DNA of 64,000 nt from Actinernus sp. WN-2022. Its lineage: Eukaryota; Cnidaria; Anthozoa; Actiniaria; Actinernidae. Under the pieces are notes generated by a model. It saw only the letters and a list, made by a program, of their open reading frames with translations, was not told where the DNA came from and did no database searches. The position numbers and the translations under genes are program-made. Below, in pieces: positions 1 to 49,900 of this stretch. Position 1 is the stretch's first letter, and every line of letters starts with the position of its first letter. Location: positions 77,714,861-77,778,860 of the forward strand of contig JAOWCC010000019.1 in assembly GCA_030867875.1 (NCBI GenBank), read 5' to 3'.

Positions 1-521
1 GGAAATTTGGAAATTGCGCCTAAGAAAGCCTACTGACGAGCTTTCTTAATTATATTGCTGATGTGCTCATTCCAGGAAAGCTTGTGGTGGATGGTAACAC
101 CAAGGTACTTAACTGAATCCAGCTGTTTAAGGGTTTGGCCATGCAAGATGTATATTGTCATGAGTGAATGGCTTCTTGCTCCCGGTGACACGTAGCACAT
201 TGCACTTATCAGAGTGAAAGGATATCTGCCGCTTGTTCTCCCATTCTTCTAGGCGTTGGAGACCCCGTTGTAGTGCCTCCACATCGGTGTTACTGGTTAC
301 AGTCATGTAGATGATTGTATCATCAGCGAATAGGCGAACATGTGACTGCAGACCATCGGGAAGGTCATTAATATAGACCAAGAATAGAACTGGCCCGATA
401 ACAGACCCTGGGGCACACTCACAGTCACAGCGAAGAAACAGTTGAACTCGGCAGATTGGAGTTTGATCTTGGTAGCAGGACTTTCTGGACGTAAAGGAGG
501 AGGAAAAAAGGTTAAGGGCAT
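1..521 (-). pseudogene. LINE reverse transcriptase fragment (non-LTR)
   Basis: Decayed middle part of a non-LTR retrotransposon reverse transcriptase, read on the minus strand and cut by the window edge. About 381-127 shows the catalytic box FADD within LFADDTIIYM, preceded by YINDLPDGL, which is the usual RT palm order. The motif VPQG-S-x-x-GP lies just upstream (about 420-390) but in another frame, so a frameshift separates the two. A third frame (about 125-20) gives KYLGVTIHHKLSWNEHI, the typical sequence after the palm. At least two frameshifts make it non-functional. The clade (jockey/CR1-like) is inferred only. Confidence 0.85.
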
Positions 522-1138
522 TGCTTAAATTTCTCTGCTAATAAAAATGCAAATCAGTGGATCTGAGCCGTTCGAAATTATAATTACGAATCATCTTGAT
601 GCCAGAAGTGGTTGCTTTGTCTTTCCAACGAAGCCTGCAGGAAACTCGCGTAATAGTCCCTTTGAACCGCAAGTGTTGTAGACCTAGAGAAAGCAAAATG
701 TGGACTGCTGAAGGATTATTCGTCGAGTCGCTTCGCTGTCTTCTTTTGTTACACGATGTCCCAGCATGCCCTGTTAGTTATCATGTTCCAGCATGCTTTG
801 TTAGTAATGATGTACCAGCATGCATTGGGTGGTGGGGATAATAAAATATGGCGTCCATCTTAGAAAGGACTCGTGTCGTCGTTGTTTAACACTTTCTTCG
901 GCAACAACATTCCTCTACTCGCCACTCTAGACCAGGATTCGAAGACATATATGCAAAAATTAAGATACAAGTCAGTTAAACATATATATCTAGAAATAAT
1001 TACACGATGGCCCAAACTAGAGATGGATTTCGAAAGATTCGAGAGTCACACAATAACAACACTGAACTTTCTGATTTTCGTAGCCTTCGAAAATGATTTG
1101 CGTGCGCAAAGCACCATGGACTCGGACACAGGGTCTTT

Positions 1139-6638: not shown

Positions 6639-9600
6639 ATGGCGGCCGGTGTTGTGTGTTTGCTGTCGTCTTGTTTTGTGTTGTTTCTAGGTACGAAAAT
6701 ATCACCATAAAGTCTTGTTTGGTAAACTGATAATATTATTAACTGATTATCTTAATATTGCAGCATTTATATCCGGTGGAAGGGCATCATATGTACTAGA
6801 ACTTGATGAGAGGTAAATTGATATTTAAATGTTTCCTAAATTAAATTGCCATTTTTACCACTACATCCGTTTTACTTAGATCAAGGCTTCAATAAAGTCT
6901 TCGCTGCAATAGAAAAGGGTGAATACATATTTAATAACATACTCCTGTGGGGGAATAGTTCTCTGTAATAATGTATCATGGATGAACATACACATTTACC
7001 GACCTGTCAAATTCAAAATGAACAATACACAATAGGCCCTTTGCAGCTAACAAATCACGTGGTTGTACTGGAGAGCAAAAAATATCTGACTTCATTTATC
7101 CAAAGGCCTTGTACGAGATCGGTAGTGCTATTAGCAAAACCTATTTGTAAATGCTATTTTCCAGCTCCAATTTATTTTCGATCTTTCAAAAACTGCGTTT
7201 TTAAAGATAGCTTGCTCTCCAGCATCCATGGCAACGCCTTTCCCATGGGGATCACGAGCCCAATTCATTCATTAACGAAGTATTATATCAGCACGTGACT
7301 GTTAGCTGCAAAGGGCCTATTATATATGACAAGTGCACACAGTAATTAAGAAGTTGGACAAAACCATCATCATCTCCATGTTCCGTATATTAAATCTACT
7401 GCATTATAGGATTTAAAATGTTTTAACACCTTAAATTTTATGAGTTAATACAAGTTGGTTTTCCTTAAAATAAATTCTGACAGCAAGATGAGCAGGATTT
7501 TTCGGTTTAATATTATTGTTATTAGAAGTGTGTAAACTTAGTAATTTTAATAACTATGCAGTATTGTTTTTAGATTTACTGAACTCAGAAAGGATGGAAG
7601 CTGGCTAGTTGAAGTGAGTACATGTACACGTATGTCTGTAAAAAAATAGAATTATTTACTGAAAAAAGGTAAAAATGAATCTTCTGGCACTCTCAACCGT
7701 GATCCCTTGGGCGCCTCTTCTATTGTGTTCATCTGCGATTTCGTTACACCACCAGGGCTCAACACAAACTTTTTCAGGTACTAGCCTATGGGATAGTGAC
7801 TGTGGGAAATTACTGGTCCCTAGGTCTTTTCCACTAACCCAATATACATGTACATCCCTTATAATAATGAGTTGCCCTGAGGAACACTTAAATTTAATAA
7901 TAAAGTCGAAATATTCGGGCAAATGCAAAATCATGATTTCTTATTTTAATTGGATAACAAATGACTACCACTACCACTGACAAAAACGTAACCCATGACT
8001 AGTTCCCAGTCTCCTGAAAAGCAGCATTTCCCAAGATGGTAATGTGATCTGCATCTGTATGTGTTCGGCACTCAGTAACGTCTCAACTGAACTAGCTGTG
8101 GTGGGTACTGTGGTTATAGTTAGGAGTTGAGGTTATCAATGATGCGTTAGTCAGCCCTAGAACATCTGCACCAAGCTGACCTCTTTGCTGATACTGAGGA
8201 TTGTCATGGCCAGGGTATTTTGCATCCTCAGTGATCGTGAGTCACTCCAGCTAGCTGGACGATTCCTTTTGATTACACTTTAACCCTTTCCCTCCTGTGC
8301 CGCCCGTAACCGCCCAATATGAAGCATGTACCTGGAGAAAATTATTGCATCAAACCTAGACATGCTGGAAATACGATGTTGTGATATTATTTCAAGGAAT
8401 GAATGACTTCAAAGTCAGAGCTATAACAGGGATCGCTTGACTCTCCCACTTTGGAGAAAAACGCATTTGTTTTGGACATCGTTGTTCGTTTCTTTGATTT
8501 TCGCGAATTTTGAGGAGCTGAAAATCGGCTCAAAAAAACCTTCCCATTCGCACTTGAAATCAAAAGCAAAAACAAAATCACCACTCAGTCGTTACAGTAC
8601 CTTGTTTAATCTTTCCAACCAGCAAGTTTGTTTGCACAAAACGCACCAAACGACTGTGAACCACGCCGATGTTTACACTGCATTTCACTCGACCACATTT
8701 ACCTGCTCCCACCTCCATTGCATGCTGGGTAATCAACAAAAAAATCACAAGGGGTCTCCCCCTCTGGAACTCCGGTAGGTTTTTTTTTATAAGTCTTTTA
8801 CCCCTACAACCAAGAGCGGTGATTTGGACTCAAGCCGTTGCTTTAAAGTGACAAAAACACATCCTAATAGGTTGGGCAGGGGTAAAAGACTGCCAACTGC
8901 AGGATTCCAAGGATTTCATTGAAGAATTTTTTCCTGTGTCTGAAAGCACAAACACAAGTACGGAAAAACCCTGTGAAATCCCCTCACAAAGCCTACTAGA
9001 AGCAAACCAAGTACTTTTCAGCCATCCTCAGACTTAATGATGTCTTCAAGCTCTCTGACAGTGGCATATTTCTCCAAAATTAGAGCTCATTTCATTAGAA
9101 ACCCTACCGAAGCAGCCATACCTACCGTCAACGAGTGAACAGAATTCTCCCAAATGGCATTGTGGGAAAAGTTTGAGCCCTCGGCTTAAAAAGTCAGCAG
9201 TATTTAACTGACCCGGGCTAGCCAAACTTGAACTGAGGGGGGAGGGTTGAGTTAGCACTCAGGATTTCACCAACTGAGCCAAACATGTCCAGTAGGGAAA
9301 GGGTTAATGTTAACTACAGAATGGCCAGACAATGAGTATTGATAGCAAAGAGGTCACAAAATCTTTCAACAGTACATGTTGAAAATCTTCTAGTTGGTGG
9401 GCTAGCTAATGATTTTCACTAGTACTTATAAGCAAACTTTTACTAGGCCAAGACTAGTACTACCACTAGTGTCGAGCCCTGGCCACCCCGTGAGACTGCT
9501 TGTTACGCCACCATTGTTCATTGGGACTGCTGCTATTCAAAATGCTTGAATCACTATTTTCCATGAAGGAGAAAATGGCATACTAGTTGTGAAAGGGATC

Positions 9601-30134: not shown

Positions 30135-32208
30135 TTACTTCTTCTTCATCGCTTCGGCCTCTGCTTTTTCTTTAGCCCTCTTCTCCCTTATACCGATAAG
30201 ACGAGCATTAGCACGTTCAATACGCAAGGTCTTGAATACGCTAAACTTCTTCTCGTCATCTGTAATGGGACGAGCCTTGATTTGAACACTGGGTTGTTGG
30301 ATTGGCATAACAGGGCCTTGGAGCTGGACAGCATTGGAAAGATCAGCAGCCTTAAGAAGACAGCATAGAACATTAGAATGAGAATAATGCACTTATCAAT
30401 AGCTCATATCCGAGATATGCCTCACTTCCTACGTACAAAGGAATCAATACGAGGCTCCGTGCATAATGCTCAGTCGTTCGTGACAAGACTACAGCACTCC
30501 TGTAGTTTGTCACGAACGACTGAGCATTATGCACGGAGCCTCGTATTGATTACTTTGTACGTAGGAAGTGAGGCATATCTCGGAAGTGGGCTATTGGCCC
30601 AGACCCCGAGGTAGGTGGAGGTTATTATGAGGAAGGTTCTTATATGCTGGATTTTACTGTAGTTGGAATTCTTATAAACTAGCACATACCTCACTGTCAC
30701 CCTGCTTGGGCTTGTTGGCCTTCCTGGGAAAGATGATCAGTTTGCTGTTATACTCCTTCAGTCTCTGAACATTAGCCTGGAGAGATTCTGTCGACCTGTT
30801 TTTCCTGCGGTGATCTACTGCAATGCCGATTGTGCGAGCAACCTTGCGAGGAATACCTGCAGCCTGAATAAGAAAGATGTCAATTTTCTGTGCAGGAAAG
30901 AGCTATAACAGTGTAACACTGATAATCACAATAAAACACCTAAAATTTAGACACTTTCCAACAAATCAAGAACTTGCAGTACATGTATCTCTACAGAAAC
31001 TGGGTCCACTTAGACAACAAGAACCAATCACATTGCAGAGTTAGAAAATGAGAACCAATCACATTGCAGAACAAAAACAAAGCATTCCAACTTATTGTTA
31101 CTTGAGCCAATCAGTGTCGAGTACAAGACAATAGCATTTCAACTTGCTCGAGCTTTGATCCGGTACAAGGCAAATTTGGTGGACTAGTTCTGAAGTCAAA
31201 GTCTTGAATGAAGAAAATCACGTGGATATGCTACGATTTATACTTTTCTAAGTGGCCCCTGTAAAAAAGTAAACTTCACTGCAAAACAGACTGTCAAGGA
31301 GCCCAAAGAATCAAGGCTAGTACATCAGCAAGGCTCATACTGTACCATAGACACTAATATTATTATACAATCAACAGTGCAAAACATGTGCTCTGATTGG
31401 TCAATAGCCATGTGTGTGTTATTAGAGTATAATGTACAGATGTCATGTTTTGCACAAAATCATTATTTTTATATCCTGTTTTTAGCTAATTATTGTGTAT
31501 AGAGCAGTTTTCAATAGAGTGTTCTAAAACCAAAATCAAAGTAACCACAGAACCAATCACAGGAGCAAATAAAAACACAATGAGCCAATCACGAACAGAA
31601 GTAATTCACGATTGGTTTTACTTGAACTAATCACAAGGAAAAGTAAACGTAATTGTGGATGCCGTAGCAATTATTCTAGTTTAATTGCTGTTCCTGCCTC
31701 TCAAAGAAAACTAAGTTAGACAACTGAAGTATATCAGAAATAGAATTTGGGGCAAAAAGAGTTCATGTTGTTTTATGGTGCTACTTGCACTTTAAATATC
31801 CAGTGAGTATCGGGGGCCCTGTGGCATGCTTGTGTGGCTCTGGGTCAGTTCTCACTCAGTACTTTTAGTAGACAGTTGCACTTTGCTGTGATCACTTGTC
31901 TACTGTAAACAGATGCACATGTATGAATACATTCTATATAGATCAAAGAAACATCCACCTACCTTCAACTCTTCCAGAGTAAACCCTCGACCAGCTCTGA
32001 TCTTTGTATTGTACCTGAAAGTTGGACATCTAACAATAGGCCTAAGAGATCCAGCCACAGGACGAGGGGCAATTTTGGCAGCCAACTGCTGACGCGACAC
32101 ACGTCTGCGCTTCTTGCGCCCGGGCTGATTAAACCATGTCCTGACATATCTCTGCCAGTCTTTGTGAAAGTGACCATTGGGAATTATGTTGTTGCGTTTT
32201 GGTGCCAT
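30135..32208 (-). CDS. RPL13: Ribosomal protein L13 (eL13), complete
   Basis: Component of the large (60S) cytosolic ribosomal subunit. Three coding exons on the minus strand: 32208-31963 (82 codons), 30863-30690 (58 codons), 30350-30135 (71 codons plus TAA). Splices are GT-AG, all phase 0, giving 211 aa, the same length as human RPL13. Diagnostic sequence includes [20 protein letters not shown] and [20 protein letters not shown] in exon 1, [20 protein letters not shown] in exon 2, and a Lys/Glu/Ala-rich end (AEAMKKK) in exon 3. The ATG at 32208 is chosen because the protein then starts MAPKRNN as in the family; an in-frame upstream ATG (32262) would add 18 residues not seen in L13. Intron 2 contains a MITE. 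No snoRNA C/D boxes were seen in the introns. Confidence 0.97.
30397..30596. repeat. Palindromic MITE, family member 1 (RPL13 intron 2)
   Basis: Long perfect arms (GCCTCACTTCCTACGTACAA, AATACGAGGCTCCGTGCATA, CTCAGTCGTTCGTGACAA) around a small loop. Outer end GGAAGTGGGCTATTG is shared with the element at 52191-52369. Very low arm divergence suggests a recent copy. Confidence 0.9.
31020..31200 (-). repeat. Dispersed repeat (RPL13 intron 1), inverted partner at 34270-34425
   Basis: Shares, in opposite orientation, GAGAACCAATCACATTG, TTGAGCCAATCAGTGT(C/T)GAGTAC and AAATTTG(G/A)TGGACTAGTTCTGA with 34270-34425. Rich in CCAAT-type ATTGG/CCAAT words. Confidence 0.7.
31673..31795 (+). repeat. Fragment of the TTAAAGTGCAAGTA element family
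   Basis: Right-end part (TTTAATTGCTG...GAAGTATAT...GGCAAAAAGAGTT...TACTTGCACTTTAA) of the family seen complete at 53338-54279 and 56914-57284. Confidence 0.75.
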
Positions 32209-33530
32209 GGTGGTTTGCAGGGAAAACCCTTCAATGGGAGAAAACGCACACAAAAAACTCATTCATGGTATATCCCAATGAGCTTATCTGATTGGTTCAA
32301 TAAAATTAGTAATCAATATTAATAAAATGATTTCAAATTGTGTAGAAGATATGCTTAACCAATAACAATAACTTAAATGACAGCTCCAATGGTACTGTTG
32401 ACTAGGTACTCAAACTCGAATGTCGACCGGTGTAGTTTTGTTTTTCGCTGTTGTCAATCATAACTGTGATATTTACAAGCAATGGCCGTGGGAAGTATTT
32501 CAACATTGCAGATTCCTGTGGGAAACTTACATGATCGGAAAGCTTTACATGGCCATTGTTCATAAATATTCATAGTTATGATTGACGGCAGCATACTTTG
32601 AGTTATCAGTCCGCATAATAATAAAAATCACGGTAATTAATGATTATTAATTACTTGCTGTAAACTAGCAACTGGTTTTCCTCCATTCTTGATTAAACAT
32701 TGTGTAATATTTTAAATGACTGTATAAATGCTGTAATGCATGGCAGTAATGTCAAAGTTTAATTGCAATTATTGCATAGCCAAAGCAATCTGGTTAGTGT
32801 TTCTTGAGTTTTGTTCAATGTTGCTGCAACCAGCCCTACATGTAGGTAACCTTCAGATTTCGATTTAGTCTTTTAGAGCAAACCTTGCACACACAGCCTT
32901 GCACACTGTCACTAGCTTTATATTCCTATGTACACTAGTACAGCGAGATATTCACAAATTTGCTTTCGCTAGACGACAAAACACACATAAATTCGAGTTT
33001 GTGCTATTATTTTAGTTACTATAAAATTCCGTGCTTTCTCTACACATTATGGATATACGATAATGCCTAGTCACAGTTTTAAATTATAGTCTCTCAAAAG
33101 AAACCAGACGGTTTCGAAAAATACACTCGTGGTCATCCTTCAATTTCATCAGTCTACGTTACTGTGGCCTTCGATACAACTGCCTATTTTCGAATTCGAA
33201 AACGTCTTACACAAAAAAATAATTGCTCAGTAGCATAAATGAATAAACAATCTAGCGCTTTATTGAGAAATTACGCTGGGATCCCAAAGGATGACTGAGA
33301 TAACTGAAGGATTATTTTCACGATACCAACCTTCCACCAAATATCTCACCAGATCAAGAGAAAGAGGACGAGAGGGCAAGCGCGCTGGGCATTGTGGTAC
33401 CCGAGCCGGCTGATACCCCTTCAGCGGTCTTACCCAATCCCTTTACTTTTCTTTCTCAAAGCCATGTGTTGAAAGTTTTAGTTGATTTAATCACCAAAGT
33501 TACCAGCTTCTACGCTTAATTTAATATAAA
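32209..33530. promoter_or_regulatory. Divergent intergenic region between RPL13 and RAB5IF
   Basis: The two genes are transcribed away from each other across 1.3 kb, so both promoters lie here. 32452-32587 is a palindromic MITE (TGTCAATCATAACTG / CATAGTTATGATTGACG, inner CAATGGCC / GGCCATTG). No TATA box is convincing. The 33380-33420 stretch is the most GC-rich and nearest to RAB5IF. Confidence 0.5.
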
Positions 33531-37983: not shown

Positions 37984-40900
37984 ATGAGTCATGAAAGTGT
38001 TGCTCTTGGAATGGCAAATAACGAAAACTCGATGGAGGACGTGTCAGAAAGAATAAGTGCGACATATGGCGGCGAAGACACCAGAGTACTTGTAAGTATT
38101 GTCGTCGGTTATCTCGTCTTCTTGAGGAATTGCAATACTATTTTGACAGCTTGTTAACTAAGAGTTTCAGCAGAATTGATATTGTCACTCGCACGGGATT
38201 AAATCAAACCGCTATATACTCTTAGTCTTATACCAAACCGCTAAGGTCGTATACTTTAGAAGTTACGCGCAAAGAAATCAAGACCGACCTTCAAGTTTTG
38301 ATTTGTGGTTCATATTAAGTTATATTGTTTATGTGTTTTTCATATATAGAATCAATATAAAAACTTTATTCAAATATGTAATGCGACTTTTCTGTTTCTA
38401 ACATTGCTGTATTATTTTCTAGGACGATTCTGAGATTGGATGCCGACTATCGGCTCGCTGGCGACTACAGAACAAGCGGCAAGCGTTGAATCAAAAAATC
38501 CATAAGCAGACAAAATTACGGGATGGAGCCGAGAATCTATTGAAAGCACTCAAGTAAGTGTTCTCTAATGATCAATTGTGGATAGTTTTCGGTGTGTTAT
38601 TTAGGAAGTTTTAAAAGGATAAAGTCATAATTATTGAGTTAAATGAACGGTTTCAAATTCACGTTCACCACCCTGAAGCTATGGTTCCTACATTTGTATG
38701 TTCTTTTTTGATTTCACACACATTTTTATACAAATACAGTCTTAAAGAACATAATTTTTATGATCTTCCAACTAATACAACACAGTGACAATTGAATACG
38801 AACTAAAGTTTGTTTAATCGATCTTTCATTTGAAAGTTTAATGATTGTATTCATATGGAATTTAATATTTTGATTAAATTTTATTCAATTGGCAGCATTC
38901 TCTGCATTTACATGTCATTGTATCTCAAGTAAAACAGTAATATTGAGAACTGCATGTTTATCTTTAGCTTATGTAAGGAATTAAAATTATTGGTGAATGA
39001 AGACTGGTATTGGGTACAAATCAGATTTGATGATTAGTGTAAAAATATTACAAGAATATACACCGGTTCATATATATACACCCTCTGAAGAAAATTAGCT
39101 GAAAACTAATGACAATTCCGAGTCTGGCTATGTTAATAGCAGATGTGGTGAATGCACCTGTTTATATAGCTGACCATGTTTTTTTAGTTTTCCCAGGATT
39201 CAAAAAGTGTAACAGCTGTGCCATGCATGGAAAGCAACATATGGTAAAACATATCAGACAAAACAAGAAATAGAACATATTCATTGGTACCAGCAAAAGC
39301 GTCCCCCCACCCCTCCCCCCCAAAAGAAGATAACTGCCATGTGGTCTCCTTCAAAAATTTTCTTCAGATTTCACGTAACCTCAAATAAAAAGGCTCTCTG
39401 TTGTCACTCATGGGATGATGTCCTCTGATAAAGAATCATCTGTATATAACTAGTCTAAAAATGGGACTAGGCTAGCTAGACCTGACACAAAAAGGTGCTC
39501 AAAAAAGAATGGACTCGTCAGCATGACATAGCAAACAAAATCAGCTTATTCTCTGAGCTTCCCACTAGAGTACTGGTGGCCTTATGAGCAGTAGGTTCTT
39601 GCCGAAGCTCATTTTGCATGCTATGTCATGCTGACGAGTCCTAATGAGGACGAAACAGCTGTCCATGACTGCATATTTCTAGAACGAGCACCTTTTTGTG
39701 TCAGATCTAGCAAGCCGTAGTGCCATTGTTAGAGTATCGCACCGTATCAGCTTTGCAGTAGTCTTTGGACTTGTTATTGTTGTCATAATTTTATATTTGG
39801 CTGGTTAGGTCCACACCTCAGATCCGGTGTTTTCTGATCCTTGGATCAGGATTTTTGTATACAGTATTTGCTTATCAGTCTATCTTTATATAGATGGAGA
39901 CAAGTATTGGAAAATAATAAAATAAAATATATATAAATATAATCTGCTGCAGGTGTTGATAGGAGCAGTTATATATGGTTAATTTTATTCAAGGAGAACA
40001 TGAGAAAAGTCAAAGTGAGTGACAATGGCTCCCACATGGAATACTTTTCAGCACATCATGTTGATTTCACTGAAGCATATGGTTCAAGATTCCTGAGAAA
40101 ATTTTGACTTTTTTTACTTGAACTGTTTATTCAATACAATTTAATTTAACATTTTCCTGGCTTACTAAGATCAATTATGAGCGGACAATCTTTACTGTCA
40201 TTTACAATGGTGAGCCGCTTCGGCGAGCCATTGTAAATGACCATAAAGATCAGATGCAAATATTTTATCGTGCTTGTGAAATGAAACAATAATTGGAATG
40301 CACATTATTGTTATGTGATTCTGTGTTATTCTAATTATGGAACTTGAAATGACCATGCATGTCCCATAGGAGTTACAGATGTTTATCAAAAGTTATGCAT
40401 ACTTATTAGCCGAGTACGAAATCTTTATCGAAAGTTAATTTACTCATTAATAATTTTATTGGGATTTACAGTACTGTGCATGTGATATGAATATTGACCT
40501 GGGATTGGTTTTCACCCTCATTAATTATTCATAAATTTTACAATGGTAATTAAAAGTAAATTAGTTGTAGAAAACACTTCCTTATGGCAATTCTTTTGAT
40601 ATGCCTTTATTCCAACGATTCACTGTATAATAGTAATAATCAAACAGTTACAAACTGTCAACCGAATAAGAGCAAACCAGACATGAATCAATACACTACA
40701 AATTATGCAGTAATATTATAGTACTTACAAAGTACAGTATTTGCCCTGTTCTGTCTTTCTTCACTGAGCAGTTTCTTCTCTTTCCTTTCTGCATTATTGA
40801 TAATGTAAGTATTTTATGCGTTAAATGATACATGTACAGTGTACTAACAAGGGAGAATTCACATGACTGTTTACATTTCTCTAGGTGCAAGTCTATGTTG

Positions 40901-43900
40901 CAGTTAACTTGTGTTTTCAGTTATTTTTTTTCTAACTAGTTAATTTTTTGCTACCGTAATTTCCGGCCTATTACCCGCACCCGCTGATTTTAGAGTCTCA
41001 AAGAAAAATATATTAACAGATTACCCACACCGACATATTACCTGCACCTAGCCTCTCAATGTAAATTTAGGTAACAATACTGGTACCTCATAGTAGGTTT
41101 TAATTGTTGTGTCTTTGTAGACATAGGAACCGTCATCAACATGTGTACATTCTTGATAGATAGAAGTCATAAATCATTGGTATACTGAGTGCGATTTCAC
41201 AGCAATTTAGAAACTAATCCACTCACCTTGGCATTTTAGAGTTCGACTCAAAGCATTTCCGGCATCAGGCGAAATTGTTCAGATACGAAACGAATATAAA
41301 AGAAAAACTTTCAAAACATTTGATTCGGAAAGTATCTCAATTTCTAAATGAAAATTTGTCTTTAGGATACCGCAAAGCAAAACAAACACTGCCGACTAAT
41401 TGATTATTCATTTAATCAGTTCGTTGAAAAATTCATGCTTCTGTGTTGTGGAATTCGAGAGACTCAAACCTCCTCACCTTTGAAAATGGATTCCACATTA
41501 ACAAAAAGAACTCCAGAATATTTTCTTTGCTGGACCTTTTCCATTTTCACAAAAAAGTTGAGAAGCTGTGTGGTAAATAAGCCACACTTTATACGCTACG
41601 CACGAAGTTCACAGAGCGTGATACTCCGGTGTTGTTGTGTCAAAAACCAGACAATGTCGAGAGAATTCACATGTCATCTCCAAGCTAGAATGGGATCTTT
41701 TGATAAGCCGGCTTCTTGAAAACATAAGCAATGATTTCAGCTAAAATCCTGAAGGATTAACGTATCAAGTGTGAAACTACATCGTACAGAAGGTATATAA
41801 AGTTTATCAGATGAAATAAGGCACCAAACTAGCGGGATGGTGTTTATACATATATGTAGTAACGCAATAATTCTTGTTTCTCATTACGGCACTGATTTCC
41901 TCAGTGTTTGTTAGATCAGAAACGGTTTCAGTTAATATATGTTTCGGTTTTATACAAAGCTAAGAAGATTTTGACGAAATAAACACTGACACTAACGGCT
42001 AATCATTACGAAAAAAAAACGTCTGCGGCTTTTAAGTTTGGCAATTCAAGAGACAACAGCGATATTTTTTTCACAAGTGAGGCGAAATTTTTGCCAGCGA
42101 AAGGTGACCGCTTTTCATTGTTTTCGACAAAGGCGATCGCTGTGTGCCGCCGGCGTATAAGGGGAGAAAGGCGATCACCATAACCTTGTGTGACAAAGTT
42201 TTAGTCTTTAGAATTTAACACATTACCCGCACCACCCTATTAGCCGCAGCAGCCGTGGTTTGGTGAAAAATTAACAGATAATCTGCGGGTAATAGGCCTC
42301 TTCCTACACTCCACATGCAGCGCTACATTGCTTTAATCAACTATACTAATTACCATATTGAATTACCATACCGGATCTGTTGGTCCAAGCCTTACCCACT
42401 GTGCCACCAAGTGATCATTGTGAAACACTGTACTTATTTACTATATAGTGCTACTAGTACTCGGTCCCCATCGATCTGGTCCAAATGCAGCAAAAAGTGA
42501 AAAATAATAAGTCAATCCAAAAAATTGTGATATAAAGTGGTAAGCTAGTTATTTTTTTTAACCTTGTTAATTTTTCTTCATTTTTTTCTATTTTCTTCTT
42601 TTTTCTATTTTCTTCATTTTTTATTTTTATTTTTTCTATTTTCTTATTACCTTGAGTATTAAGATAATAACATTAAACCCTAACCCAACCCCTAAAACCA
42701 ACTCTAACCATTCTGAAAAGAGGTAAACAATGAGTTATTCAATGGTCCTGTGAACTAATTCAAAGCCTAACCCTACATTAAAAAAAAAAAAAACCCATCA
42801 ACAATGGGTTCTCACTAATTTAGGGTTTTTATGGGTAATCACTATAGGATTCACAGGTAAACAAGTTTTCACTGGCCTAGAGCTAGGGTTTACCTGGTAA
42901 TAAGGGCTCTAAATCTAGTTTAAAAATTGACTAGTTAGAAAAAAGTAAACTACAGTAGTTAGAAAAAAAATTAACTGAAAGCAAAAATTAACTGCAACAT
43001 CTACATTAGACTTATTTATACTGTCTTATTGATTTTTTAGGTCCACTCGTGATCGTAAACTTAAGCAGGCTGCCAGAATGGAGCTTAGCTTTGCTAGCTC
43101 ACAACTGGACTTGCTGAGAGAGGAACTGGAAGGCATCAACTGCTCACTTGATGTTTATCAGTTTGATGGGTAAGGAGGGGTTCACTGTATGCTATTTAGG
43201 GACCATTTATTATTTATTTGGGGAGGGGCTGGCAACGTTTATTTAAAACAAGCTGAAAGCATTTATAAGCCCTCCTTCTATTGCCAAAATACACAGGGCA
43301 AAATATAACAAAAATGTTCTCTCAGTTTTAGCATTTACTGATCAGTAGAAGGGCAAATGAAGAGCATACATTTTTTTTACCCAGGTCATTCCACAGTATT
43401 CCGTATGTTGCGGAGGGGAAATTCAGGGACACTTATGTTATCACAGTTTGATAGGTATGACATATTTGCTTCTAGTTAAATAACGAGGATTTAAGTCTTC
43501 AAGTATGGTGTATTTGCCACTGCCTTGTTTTTTTCTTAAATGTGTCTTTCAAATAACAGAGCTTCAAGAGGTGACTGTTGCGGAGGGGAACAGAGATCTC
43601 ATGTTTTTTATTTTCCAAATTTCCTTAGATTTCTCTGAATCGTGAAAAGCCATACTGAGTCTAATGTATTATTCCTTTTCTACGATGTCTTTATTATAAT
43701 AGGAACACAAAAGGGAACTTGATTGTTTTGAGTTTTCTAAATTGGGTTGGTTTTGAAAATATTATCCACTGTTGCAGAGGGGAAGTTGCGGAGGGAAAAT
43801 TTTGTCCTTTTAAGAAAATAGAAAACAACAAGTTGTCAATGCTTTGATAAAACCCATATTTTAATAATGGTACAACAGGTTTAAAACATTTAGTTCTCCA

Positions 43901-46900
43901 ATATTTGCACAATGTTTTGCAGTGACTGCATGAAATCGACATGTCATAAATCAACATAATTATAAAAATATTATGCATAGATCTCATGTTTTTTTATTTT
44001 CCAAAATTCTTTCTTAGATTTCTCTAAATCACGAAAAGCCATACTGAGTCTAATGTATTATTCCTTTTCTACAATGCCTTTATCATAATAGGAACACAAA
44101 AGGGAACTTGATTGTTTCGAGTTTTCTAAATTGGGTAGGTTTTGAAAATATCATCCACTGTTGCGGAGGGGAAATTTTGTCCTTTTAAGAAAATAGAAAA
44201 CAACAAGTTGTCAATGCTTTGATAAAACCCATATTTTAATAATGGTGCAACAGGTTTGAAACATATTTAAATAGTTCTCCAATATTTACACAATGTTTTG
44301 CAGTCACTATGCATAAAATCGACTTGTCATAAATTAACATAATTATAACAATCTTATGTAGATGCATATTACTGCAGCTATAACTTATGCAGTTCATACA
44401 TGTAGATATCAAAATACAATGAAAACTGAATGTTAATATACCTGTCAGTTATAGTGGTTACACTGGCAACAACCTAATGCTTATTCAGAGAAAGGAACAC
44501 CTTTTTAACCTGATCATGTTCCATAATGGTAAATAATGGAGCATTTCCTTGCAGTTGAACAGGACCATAGAATACACAGCTTGCATGAACAGTGTCAATA
44601 TCATCCCTTCTGGGCCAATCAAAGCTTTTGGCACTAGAACCATGCAAAAACTTGAATGTGATGTATCCATCTGATGCTTGAAGAGTTCTGCCAATGTAGT
44701 AGTGGTTTACATAGTCTACTGCATAATACTCTGGCACTCTGATTCCTTCAGGAGGGATTGGTAAGAAGGCATTTCTATGCATTTCAAGGATCATATATCT
44801 CCTGACATCAGATATGCTGTTGTCTGTAGGAGCAATCATTGGGCTAAGCTTCACAAGACGTCTTGAAAACATGCATGTAAATATGCCACAGTCGCAGTCA
44901 TTTGACTGGCTTGGGATGTCCCCAGGCTTGTTTCCATAGAAATCCCACTGTGCAATGTCAAGACCACTGTCAACTTCTTTTAAGAAAGAGCTCAACTTCT
45001 TGATAGCTCCAACCACTCTTGGCTTTACAGAAAAACTTGACTTGCTGTCCAAGGCTATCACACGCTTCTGTTTTGGTTGAACAGCCAGAAGAAACCAGTG
45101 GAAGCTGTTACTGGCATTACAAGGCACGAGAACAAGGTCTTGATCAAGGATTGAGTTCTTTCCCTTTAGTAGTTGCCGAGCAGACACTGTTCCAACCCCA
45201 CGTTCAAACATTTCCCAGGTGAGCACTTCCATTTTTACATTCTGTGTAAAACTCCCCCTCTTAAGCAGTTCTAAGTAACTATCAATCATGAAGTTTGAAA
45301 TCCACTTTTCTTTTGAAGTGGCTCCATTGCCACACAAGGCCTTGAGATCATCTTTAATTATCAGTTTTCTTGAACCACAAAAAACGATGCTTCCAGTAAC
45401 AATGCAATCAATCAGGGGTGCCAGATAAAGGGGTAACTGAAATGCTGTAGAGTTGTTAAACATGGATGTAAACTCCTTTGGTAATCCATGCTCTACATGA
45501 ACATGTACATCTTCTCTTTTGTTTCTGTCATCTTTTCCATCATCGTCTTCATCATCTTGTTCCTCATCTTCTTTCTTATAGTCTTCTTCATCCTCGTCTT
45601 CTTCATCCTCGTCTTCTTCATCCTCGTCCTCGTCCTCTTCATCCTCGTCTTCTTCGTCCTCGTCTTCTTCGTCCTCGTCCTCTTCGTCCTCTTCGTCTTC
45701 GTCCTCGTCCTCTTATTAGTCCTCTTCGTCCTCGTCCTCTTCGTCCTCGTCGTCCTCATCCTCTTCGTCCTCGTCCTCTTCGTCCTCCTCGTCCTCGTTC
45801 TCTTCGTCGTCCTCGTCCTCGTCCTCTTCGTCCTCGTCTTCTTCGTCCTCGTCTTCTTCGTCCTCGTCTTCTTCGTCCTCGTCTTCTTCGTCCTCGTCCT
45901 CTTCGTCCTCGTCCTCGTCCTCTTCGTCCTCGTCCTCGTCCTCTTCGTCCTCGTCCTCTTCGTCCTCGTCCTCTTCGTCCTCTTCGTCCTCTTCCTCTTC
46001 GTCCTCGTCCTCGTCCTCTTCGTCCTCGTCCTCTTCGTCGTCGTCCTCTTCGTCGTCGTCCTCTTCCTCGTCCTCTTCGTCCTCGTCCTCTTCGTCCTCG
46101 TCCTCTTCGTCCTCGTCCTCTTCGTCCTCGTCCTCTTCGTCCTCCTCTTGTTCATGTTCTTTAGGCTTGCCTGAATCTGTGTTGAGGACTGGTGAAGGAA
46201 TTGGTGAAACCTTTTCATCCACTATCAAAACATGCTCACTGCAGCAATCTTTGATTAGGAACTGTGAATTATTTGCTACACTGATTGTGAAATCATTTGC
46301 TTTTGAAGCAAAGTGAATTGCATGCGTATGAGGGATTGCTCTACACCCACTCTACCTTTGCTTTAACTTCTCTGACTGGTCATTGACTTTAGATTGTGGG
46401 ATGTAAAGTGTGTGAATTCTCTTACACACTTTGTTGGCAGCCTGATAAAATTCTTGGGCATTTGAGACAACTTCTTTGTTCTGAAGAATGGAACGCCATA
46501 CTGCTCGTTTGACCTCGCCACCAATACCATCCACAGGACCTTTACCATGAGCTGTTTCAAAAAAGCTCCATGTTGTCTTGACACCAAAGTCCTTTTCATG
46601 GAAAAGTAAGTTTACTAGATTGTATCTGTTCTTAAATTGTGAGCCAGCCCCATCACTCCAATAGTGCACCTTTGTTACTGGGGTAATTTGCTTAACCTCT
46701 TCAAGTATAGCTTTGTTAAAGGCATGCACACTCTGCTTGTCATGGCTCAAGTCATCAGATATTACAGCATATGATATGTGTTCCAGGTCACCCTTGTCAC
46801 TTCTATAGTAGACAACTGCTGTAAACAAAGTAACTGTATCATTAGACCAGTGGGCTGCCATAACTTCTCTCTGGTACTTTAGCTGAAAATTCTCAGAAAA

Positions 46901-49900
46901 ATCCTCCTGAATTATCACTTCACCCATTTGTAAACTTCTTTGAGGTGTTTTAACTCAGTAAACTGCCTCCTGATGTTATATACATGCCTGCCAAATGACT
47001 GCAACTGCCCCATCAAATCTTCTTTAGCATCTGCTATTGTGACCTCAATCTCCTGTTTTCTTACTCTTCCATCTTCACAAGTCTCCCACTGGTAATATGA
47101 TATTGGACTGTCTTCATCAGCATCTTTAAACAGTTCATCAAGTGGTTCATCAATCCCACATGTAAATCATTCTCTATCCATGCACTTTACCTGGTCAAGA
47201 CTGCAGACTGTTTGACAGAGGAGGTCTTCACTGGACTTGGGTGTTTCTTGTAATATTACTGTGAGGCCATCCAGTATCAAATTAATATTCTTGTGGTACT
47301 TATACACACACACCTCATGGTCATGTAGGGTCATTGGCATTACTTGGCGAGGACGAAGTGAAGCAAACTTTGCCTTTCCAATCTTTAAACCTGGGAATTC
47401 TTTCTTGAAGAGCTCATACATGTATATCTTGCTTACATTCAACATGAGTAGCCTTTTCTGTCGTAACTCTCTTCCTTGTGGTGTTTTAACTGAAACACAG
47501 TCCTTTTTGCCAGGGCACATCCTACTAATGTCATCTCTTGAAAAGAAATCTTCAACTGATTTAATTAGTTCTCCTGACAGGGCATCTGACCTTATCTTCC
47601 TTCCATTTTCTGTTTTTCTTCTTTTCACTGCTGCATCACATGACTGGAGTACAGCTTTTCGTTTTCTTGGAGAGAGTGAATGCACAACCTGACAAAGAAC
47701 AGTGGTTCTCTTTGCATCATGAGAAGGAAGACTCTTTTTAACTCTATGAACTGCTTTCCCAAGGCTCTGAGGGCTCTTAAATATACCATGTGTGGTTGCT
47801 TCTTTTCCAGTAATGGCCAGTTGATTCTTTCTTGCAGCTTGTAATCTTTTCTTCAATCGTACTTTTTCTCTTACTTTGGATTTGTCCATTTCAGACATGG
47901 TTGCTTTCTTTTCAGCATATTTTGCTTTCTTTCGTTCTCTATCTTGTTTCTTGTATTCTTCATGTTTGATCGGGTCATTTCTAATATTCTTTCTAAACTT
48001 TTTGCTTCTTGCAGTACTAGAAGACATGGCTTAAAATTATACTTAAAGTGTGCAGAAATTTACTCACCTAGCTAGGCAGCCATTTTGAATTCAAGCACAT
48101 GGTCTTTGCTTTCCCATAATGCACATGGTCTTTGCTATCCCACAATACAATGTAATCCAACAATGCAATGCAGTCAGTAGACATGCATGCATACAAAGTA
48201 CTTACTGGTATATTGGCAGAGAATAAACTAATGACCGTTTATTTAAATATGTAACATTAAATGTAAATACATATGTTAAATTCTAATTTGGGCAATTCCC
48301 TGCCACAACAAAAGTTCCCCTCCGCAACAGAAAATAATCAATCTGCCTCGACTATAATTTAAAACACCCAAGCTTTTTGAGCATAATAGAGTTTAACCCT
48401 TGACTAAAATCAGAGAATTTGAAAAACTGAAGTTTGTCTGATGACCTGATAGCTTGGTGTCAAATCGTTGCGGAGGGGAAAACTGCCTAATGGAATGTAG
48501 ATGCTGCTCTCACACTGATATATATATAGGGGGTTAAGTCGGTGTCAAAGTTACTTTGTCTGCTGGAGTTCATGTCCCAACCAAGTCCAGAAACATTTGT
48601 TTCTTATTTTTTTCAAGTAATTGTTTTTGTTTTCCCCTCCGCAACAATCATTTTAGTAATTGTAGCTAATTAATGATAATTTATGCATTGTGAACAGTTG
48701 CCGACAAACTATTTCCTTCATTTTCTTATACTAGAACTAATATATTACCAATTCATCATAAGTTTACATCAATTTATCAGATTGAATTTTCTTTTTTTTT
48801 TCTCCACAATACTGTGGAGTGACCCACGGTCCACATTTAATTTCCTTCTTACGAAACAAATTTTTGCCCCCCAAAAATACAAAAATAGTGACTCACAAAA
48901 TAGGCTTGTGGCTCGCAAATAATGGCTCGCAACTCGCAGGCTTGCACTTTAGCCAACCTTCCCCTATCCCCACATAAATAAAGAATGGTCACACTGTTTT
49001 AATACCACTATATTAATGTGTATTGTGGTTACTTTAATTTGTTGATATTCCTAGATTAACTGAAATAATCTTGGAAATTTAATTAAATGTCTTGATATTA
49101 TTACCAGGAGCATGGAAAGACAAGTTCCTATGATTCCTCTTGGCCTTAGAGAGACACAAGAAGTTGATTTCCTAATTCCATTCAAGGTGAATAAGCACAT
49201 CTCAGGGCACAATGAAAGTGCTGTCCAATAGCCCATGACTAGTGGATTTTCCTGTCTGGCTGGTACACGTAATATTATTATTGGTTTGATGACTTGCCTG
49301 ATGGGCAAGAAAATAGGCTTCTTAATTTTTTTAGTTAATTCAATTAAAATTTGGGCAAACTTGGAAGACCCATGGGCTAGTGGAATAAGGTTATTCAGGA
49401 AAGCTTTAATTTATTTTTCCTTCTAACCCTTGCATCTACATAATTATAATACAGTATAATTTATATACCAAATGTGAGGTCAAGATGGAGTGACAGATGT
49501 ATATTGGCAAAGTCCTTTTGTTTGCCTGTTTATGGACAGATTGAGACACATTTGAGGTCCATAAGCATACAAAAAGAGAGCGAGGTCAGTATCCCCTCAT
49601 CTTGACCAAACAAGCTTGGTCAATAAGGTTTTTAGTATATGCAAAAATAGATTCCTAAGTCCCTTTGTGTCTTTATCTTCCATGTTTTTTGGTTGTTGTT
49701 TCAAAATGAATTTGTGAAACTCTGCAACAACAATAATTCTCCTTCATGCATAATTACTTGAAGGACAAGTAACTCCTGATCATGTTTCTAAATTCTCCCT
49801 TAGGAAACAAAGAATTTGAAGGAGAATTAGAATGTGATCAGAAGTCACTAATGTCCTTGTTGCATGCAGCCCATCAATTGTCTTCAACATTTTTTGCTAC

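Follow-up and report, generated by a model that had tools for sequence, protein, structure and literature searches.

An apparently retrozyme-like hammerhead repeat with Penelope-type insertion anatomy in an Actinernus intron

Introduction

Penelope-like elements and retrozymes are the described systems closest to the hammerhead repeat analyzed here, and they are summarized from the accessible excerpts of the cited papers. Rotifer Penelope inserts contain both direct and inverted pseudo-LTRs and are flanked in several cases by 8-10-bp duplications (PMC3846280, Arkhipova 2013). The inverted repeats are most often head-to-head. Palindromic inverted junctions occur and are frequent in one rotifer, a 31-bp tail is optional at one inverted pseudo-LTR, and partial tandems are present as well (PMC3846280). 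The Penelope protein of a lizard cleaves and extends both target strands in vitro, has a preference for AT-rich DNA, and begins copying at two neighboring positions within the RNA (PMC11167929).

Retrozymes are non-autonomous, and a paper on them mentions circRNAs of 150 to >1000 nt (PMC7229834). Which machinery moves animal retrozymes is described as unsettled, LINEs and Penelope elements both being candidates, and it has already been proposed that retrozymes are reduced Penelope elements or are moved by them (PMC7229834, PMC11722881). In the accessible text of the literature covered, which takes in few subscription papers, no paper shows a head-to-head, Penelope-type insertion anatomy for retrozymes.

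The hammerhead ribozyme

The window is the whole stretch of 64,000 nucleotides of Actinernus DNA that was analyzed. A preliminary description had claimed a complete type I hammerhead within it and had proposed a search with covariance models. The Rfam models returned an above-gathering match to Hammerhead_1 over the full model (positions 1-45 of 45; gathering threshold 34, E 1.7e-8; Table 1). It is the sole above-gathering match in the 64-kb window, and a permissive-threshold search of the window gave, besides the hammerhead, below-gathering matches alone. A search for the core pattern (open stem II, stem III/cleavage block) that tolerated one mismatch hit the window at a single place and matched 0 of 100 shuffles.

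The RNA reads GUCAUG-CUGACGA-GUCC-UAAUGA-GGAC-GAA-ACAGCUGU-C^CAUGAC. The core CUGACGA / GAA / GUC is complete, stem II has 4 bp and stem I has 6 bp, as in the preliminary description, and the predicted cut follows GUC. The outer helix of an extended stem I (AUGC/GCAU) is recovered in the predicted fold of 39605-39685. Stem III is the 8-nt palindrome ACAGCUGU, which leaves the weak monomeric stem that had been described. The Rfam consensus itself draws stem III without a loop, and a loopless stem III is therefore not unusual. The helix III of two pairs with a tetraloop can be likened to those of invertebrate hammerheads, going by the accessible part of PMC7229834. In folding predictions, the 45-mer alone favors a non-hammerhead fold (-14.5 vs -8.6 kcal/mol for the hammerhead), and two 45-mers co-fold as a double hammerhead at -33.1 kcal/mol. 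The earlier suggestion that cutting would need two RNAs is reasonable, but this is a usual state for ribozymes of this kind.

A short reading frame at 39595-39717 runs through the whole hammerhead and has its ATG inside stem I, which could be chance. In one Penelope element the ORF start likewise lies within the hammerhead, according to the accessible part of PMC11167929.

The repeat family

A search of the organism's own genome (1.39 Gb) gave 577 candidates, the best 40 of which were scored, with 129 matching pieces. The dispersed copies bear out the suspected repeat-derived origin. Among the 40 scored candidates, most of the long matches cover query positions 74-247 only. Thirty regions were fetched from the scored candidates, chosen by similarity to the window element. 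Unit positions are counted from window position 39543.

The family is a tandem unit of ~518 bp with one hammerhead per unit. The same unit sequence recurs 518 nt apart in L010, and complete hammerheads stand in direct tandem 518 nt apart in L032 and 519 nt apart in L033. The contrast that had been drawn with families whose copies are direct repeats does not hold, as the family also contains copies in direct tandem, spaced 518-519 nt. Such tandem hammerheads should be able to release unit-length RNA; this applies at the level of the family, and the window copy has one complete hammerhead. Copies are 5'-truncated to a varying extent. At least one above-gathering hammerhead was found in 29 of the 29 loci scanned (30 fetched, L025 left out; loci selected by similarity).

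The unit has no room for a reverse transcriptase because it is only ~518 nt long. No reading frame of at least 170 aa overlaps a family copy in the 20 longer loci, and no GIY-YIG domain was found in the 8 scanned of 17 long frames near family copies. The G+C content of two units is 43%. Viral contigs contain no exact match to the hammerhead pattern of this family.

Free variation of the core bases among genomic copies would have spoken against a ribozyme. Across 37 copies (L025 dropped, both L009 copies kept), departures from the majority number 26 in the 1664 cells of the hammerhead columns and 138 in the 4477 remaining cells of the 174-bp stretch (Fisher p 7e-4, relatedness of the copies ignored), and 31 of the 37 match the core pattern.

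A second hammerhead with unrelated flanks lies at 6993-7037 (-) of L010, in a different element that has only a 48-nt stretch, the hammerhead, in common with the family. Its stem I, GCCAUG/CAUGGU, keeps its pairing by a two-sided change, and its core is broken (CUAA in place of CUGA).

The insertion at the window locus

The ribozyme had been placed in a 245-bp inverted-repeat element. The inverted arms are present, at 94% (39470-39500/39686-39716) and 92% (39511-39547/39605-39641); with a gap allowed, the outer arms extend to 39451-39500/39686-39736 at 88%. The extent was underestimated, however, since the mobile element runs over ~39449-39881. A stand-alone 245-bp inverted repeat was rejected as the carrier; judging from the mapping of family copies, the carrier is one insertion, a head-to-head pair of ~433 bp between target-site duplications (Table 1). 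Its borders were set by the target-site duplication, the longest exact match of which is 6 bp in a tight test. The direct copy ends at the long 3' end of the family. The inverted copy covers unit positions 63-100 and 130-191, from 39547 back to 39449, and overlaps the direct copy by 5 bp at the junction. The half ribozyme reported to oppose the complete one is present exactly.

Table 1. Coordinates of features in the window
Feature	Position	Strand	Basis or remark
Upstream HR1 exon, rhophilin-type gene	38423..38553	+	Donor GT at 38554
Left target-site duplication ATCTGTATATA	39438..39448	.	11 bp, 1 mismatch to 39882-39892
Whole insertion, head-to-head pair of one hammerhead repeat family, ~433 bp	39449..39881	+	Copy mapping
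Inverted partial copy, unit 63 to ~191, internal deletion	39449..39547	-	Copy mapping, L009 alignment
31-bp deletion site, 3' half of left hammerhead gone	39510..39511	.	Alignment to L009
5' half of second hammerhead	39511..39533	-	Exact reverse complement of 39619-39641
Direct copy, 5'-truncated, unit 1 to ~327	39543..39881	+	89.7% to L023
Hammerhead with extended stem I	39618..39674	+	Internal loop UAU/U, then AUGC/GCAU; by eye from sequence
Complete type I hammerhead	39625..39669	+	RF00163 45.5 bits; cut predicted between 39663 and 39664
Right target-site duplication ATCTTTATATA	39882..39892	.	Pairs with 39438-39448
Downstream HR1 exon, rhophilin-type gene	43041..43169	+	Acceptor AG at 43039-43040

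A copy of the window locus (L009) is present on contig C598 (177 kb) and aligns over ~8 kb at 95.6-96.2%. The locus appears haplotype-like, with a recent duplication as the alternative. Its left arm retains 31 bp missing from the window copy, and both of its inverted hammerheads are full length and above Rfam gathering (45.2 and 38.4 bits). Since L009 has both, the half ribozyme of the window can be attributed to a 31-bp deletion. What had been described as one and a half ribozymes is thus a head-to-head insert with two ribozymes, shortened by a deletion. The right-hand hammerhead of L009, the counterpart of the complete one in the window, reads CUGACAA; the changed core base is the one that we take to be G8 in hammerhead numbering (G8 -> A). 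The intact ribozyme of L009 is that of the other arm, antisense to the host gene.

Between the window and L009, 17 of 190 bases differ at 39548-39740 (palindrome loop and right arm). The flanks differ by ~1-2%, and just downstream the count is 2 of 149. Possible sources of the raised divergence at 39548-39740 are arm-to-arm conversion, palindrome-linked mutation, or an assembly error.

The host gene

Exon peptides on the + strand match HR1 (9.1e-16) and BRO1 (1.5e-9) and support a rhophilin-type gene, the combination of the two domains being, as we assume, that of rhophilins. The element lies in sense orientation within intron 38554-43040, which has GT/AG borders, in agreement with the placement first proposed. 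It had also been suggested that the ribozyme could cut the host pre-mRNA. The predicted fold of the sense RNA over 39451-39736 has an energy of -145.5 kcal/mol (z -13.3), and imposing the hammerhead fold costs 33.7 kcal/mol in this RNA vs 8.5 without the left arm. The 5' half of the ribozyme is perfectly complementary to the left arm, and with the hammerhead fold so costly, the ribozyme is expected to be locked. With a hammerhead fold ~34 kcal/mol above the minimum in the model and a G8-mutated counterpart in L009, efficient cutting of the host pre-mRNA is unlikely. The sense orientation and the intact core would suit an intronic ribozyme that had been domesticated to cut rhophilin pre-mRNA. 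This reading was rejected as extremely improbable, given that the fold is so costly in the presence of the left arm and that L009 carries the G8 change at this position and keeps the ribozyme that is antisense to the gene. Taken by itself, the locus is an ordinary intronic insertion that has decayed.

Other features of the window include a Ribosomal protein L13e exon at 31900-32262 (-) (2.8e-39) and a reverse transcriptase fragment at 127-537 (-) (PF00078, 5.4e-9). An Ulp1-type peptidase frame at 44474-45712 (-) (PF02902, 4.8e-14; 11 homologues by protein search) adjoins a long acidic repeat. It is accompanied by frames at 46352-48030, and the ensemble looks like a mobile element.

Insertion anatomy across loci

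Insertions were compared at 29 non-redundant loci, consisting of the window and 28 fetched loci; L009 (duplicate of the window) and L025 (duplicate of L020) were left out. Head-to-head pairs were counted at 10 of the 29 (window, L010, L011, L013, L024, L026, L027, L032, L033, and L037), no tail-to-tail pair was found at any of them, and 19 are single-orientation loci. The second arm is just ~36-41 bp long in L011 and L037, and the inverted arms begin at different unit positions, locus by locus. These counts bear on a fold-back DNA transposon or MITE with terminal inverted repeats that captured a hammerhead by chance. Such an element would have arms like those of the window (31-51 nt at 88-94%) and could leave an AT-rich target-site duplication, but inverted termini are not present in most copies, given the 19 of 29 loci in a single orientation. 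The variable borders and arm starts, the 5'-truncated copies, and the direct tandems also argue against this explanation, which we rejected and regard as hardly credible.

Target-site duplications were sought at 28 loci; L033, whose fetched sequence does not reach the left border, was left out. Exact duplications of 10-13 bp flank 6 of the 28 (L011, 10; L013, 12; L024, 11; L026, 13; L027, 11; L035, 12), as opposed to 0 of 756 mismatched left/right pairs. An exact duplication of at least 10 bp is absent from 22 of the 28 tested loci, the window included. Five of the six duplication-flanked loci are head-to-head, which amounts to 5 of the 9 head-to-head loci tested. Since five of the six duplications surround head-to-head inserts, the pair appears to insert as one unit.

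The similarity of the two arms within a pair differs among loci. Over 171 nt the arms of L024 show no difference, which 0 of 70 comparisons with other loci match; those of L010 are 98.8% alike, and 10 of 70 other-locus comparisons are equally close. The arms of L009 and L026 are no closer mutually than they are to other loci, as would be expected of two independent, adjacent insertions in inverse orientation. Nevertheless, all 10 inverted pairs are head-to-head, and the 10-13-bp duplications at 5 of the 9 tested enclose the whole pair. Two separate insertions were rejected on these grounds and are very improbable.

Of the 19 single-orientation loci, 6 have their 3' end at unit positions 236-247, another 6 at 327-338, and the other 7 outside these ranges (169-224, 299); the two 3'-end classes, at unit ~245 and ~330, were defined after the data had been seen. 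In all seven head-to-head inserts with two 3'-type ends, one end is at ~324-331 and the other at ~191-250. The approximate unit positions are 330/232-250 in L010, 209-222/330 in L011, 330/230-239 in L013, 249/327 in L024, 330/245 in L026, 241/331 in L027, and 191/327 in the window. Each two-ended pair thereby has a tail of ~85 nt at one border. L032 and L037 break the rule, as their right borders are at unit -23 and -50 and are not 3' ends. No evident A-tail was seen at those borders of family copies that were inspected.

With L009 and the window counted separately, 7 of 11 head-to-head junctions have an overlap of 1-5 bp and 4 have gaps of 3-27 bp. No perfect palindrome arm longer than 5 bp is present at the 11 inverted junctions. 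A junction palindrome is not known to be a defining feature of Penelope-like elements. Microhomology at junctions fits twin priming too, and the junctions are thus also compatible with an ordinary animal retrozyme mobilized by a LINE, whose inverted copies would arise by LINE-type twin priming on multimeric or circular RNA. In addition, RVT_1 matches in the window and near copies can be read as LINE-type reverse transcriptase fragments, and LINEs are named beside Penelope elements as possible retrozyme helpers (PMC7229834, accessible part). On the other hand, the 3' ends lie largely in two internal classes, and an A-tail is not evident at the borders inspected. An ~85-nt tail at a single border, as in each two-ended pair, matches what has been published for Penelope (PMC3846280), and direct partial tandems are also Penelope-like (PMC11167929), as far as the accessible parts of these papers go. 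A LINE as the mobilizer is thus unlikely, though it is the least improbable of the alternatives.

A model for the insertion

The window element is probably one old insertion of a non-autonomous, retrozyme-like element that entered by Penelope-type dual priming with the aid of a presumed helper. Hammerheads, alone or as pairs, would trim multi-unit transcripts. A helper reverse transcriptase, most probably one from a Penelope-like element, would use the two cut strands of an AT-rich target site as primers, and reverse transcription would often start at one of two internal sites, unit ~245 and ~330. Two 5'-incomplete cDNAs would then be joined end to end. In the resulting head-to-head pair, both borders would be 3'-type ends, one of them with a tail, and the insert would lie within a target-site duplication of 10-13 bp. 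At the window locus, the left copy would later have lost 31 bp, and the sense RNA would form a long hairpin with the ribozyme locked in it. We infer from the DNA that the ribozyme is active, that the template is circular or linear RNA, and that the helper is of the Penelope type. Dual-strand priming would account for the head-to-head pairs together with the 3' ends at both borders.

The preliminary description regarded an inverted-repeat carrier as unusual. According to the accessible part of PMC3846280, pseudo-LTRs inverted head-to-head are a typical trait of Penelope elements, and an inverted carrier is to be expected because such anatomy has been published for Penelope-like elements. What appears to be new is a retrozyme-like element with a Penelope-type insertion anatomy. 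A broader proposal is offered more tentatively, as one that is quite possible: animal retrozymes may be moved by Penelope-type machinery that primes both target strands, with copying starting ~125-210 nt past the ribozyme cut. If so, the ribozyme would trim multimers and set no end that is copied, which divides its role in processing from the choice of the copying start. Should retrozyme-like units bear Penelope footprints (head-to-head pairs, a one-sided tail, 10-13-bp duplications, and recurrent internal 3' ends), the mobilizer becomes testable by copy counts in any animal genome, without RNA.

Comparison with known systems

The comparisons below refer to the accessible parts of the cited papers. 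Plant LTR retrozymes (PMC4918200) are likewise non-autonomous hammerhead retroelements, but they have type III hammerheads inside LTRs (per PMC7229834). The satellite hammerheads of newt and axolotl also have a short helix III and work better as dimers (PMC7229834). They differ in being tandem satellites; one axolotl family has a helix III of a single pair, and the other a helix III of two pairs.

Metazoan non-LTR retrozymes (Cervera and de la Pena 2020, PMC7229834) share more with the window family: a type I hammerhead, a two-pair helix III with a tetraloop, a G+C content <50%, direct tandems, no coding capacity, and target-site duplications >4 bp. In contrast, their unit is ~170-400 nt vs ~518 nt here (PMC7229834). 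Metazoan retrozymes are expressed as linear and circular RNA, and head-to-head insertions with a one-sided tail are not described for them in the accessible text of that paper.

Penelope-like elements differ from the hammerhead unit, which has no RT/GIY-YIG frame and no palindromes at its junctions. Penelope hammerheads are described as minimal variants (PMC7761336), and the window hammerhead has a short stem III and an internal loop in stem I. The likeness consists of head-to-head inverted repeats, partial tandems, 5' truncation, and a one-sided tail, together with short AT-rich duplications, internal 3' ends, and a hammerhead in the repeat. In summary, the element resembles a retrozyme in its ribozyme, its tandem arrangement, and its absence of coding capacity, and it resembles a Penelope element in its insertion anatomy.
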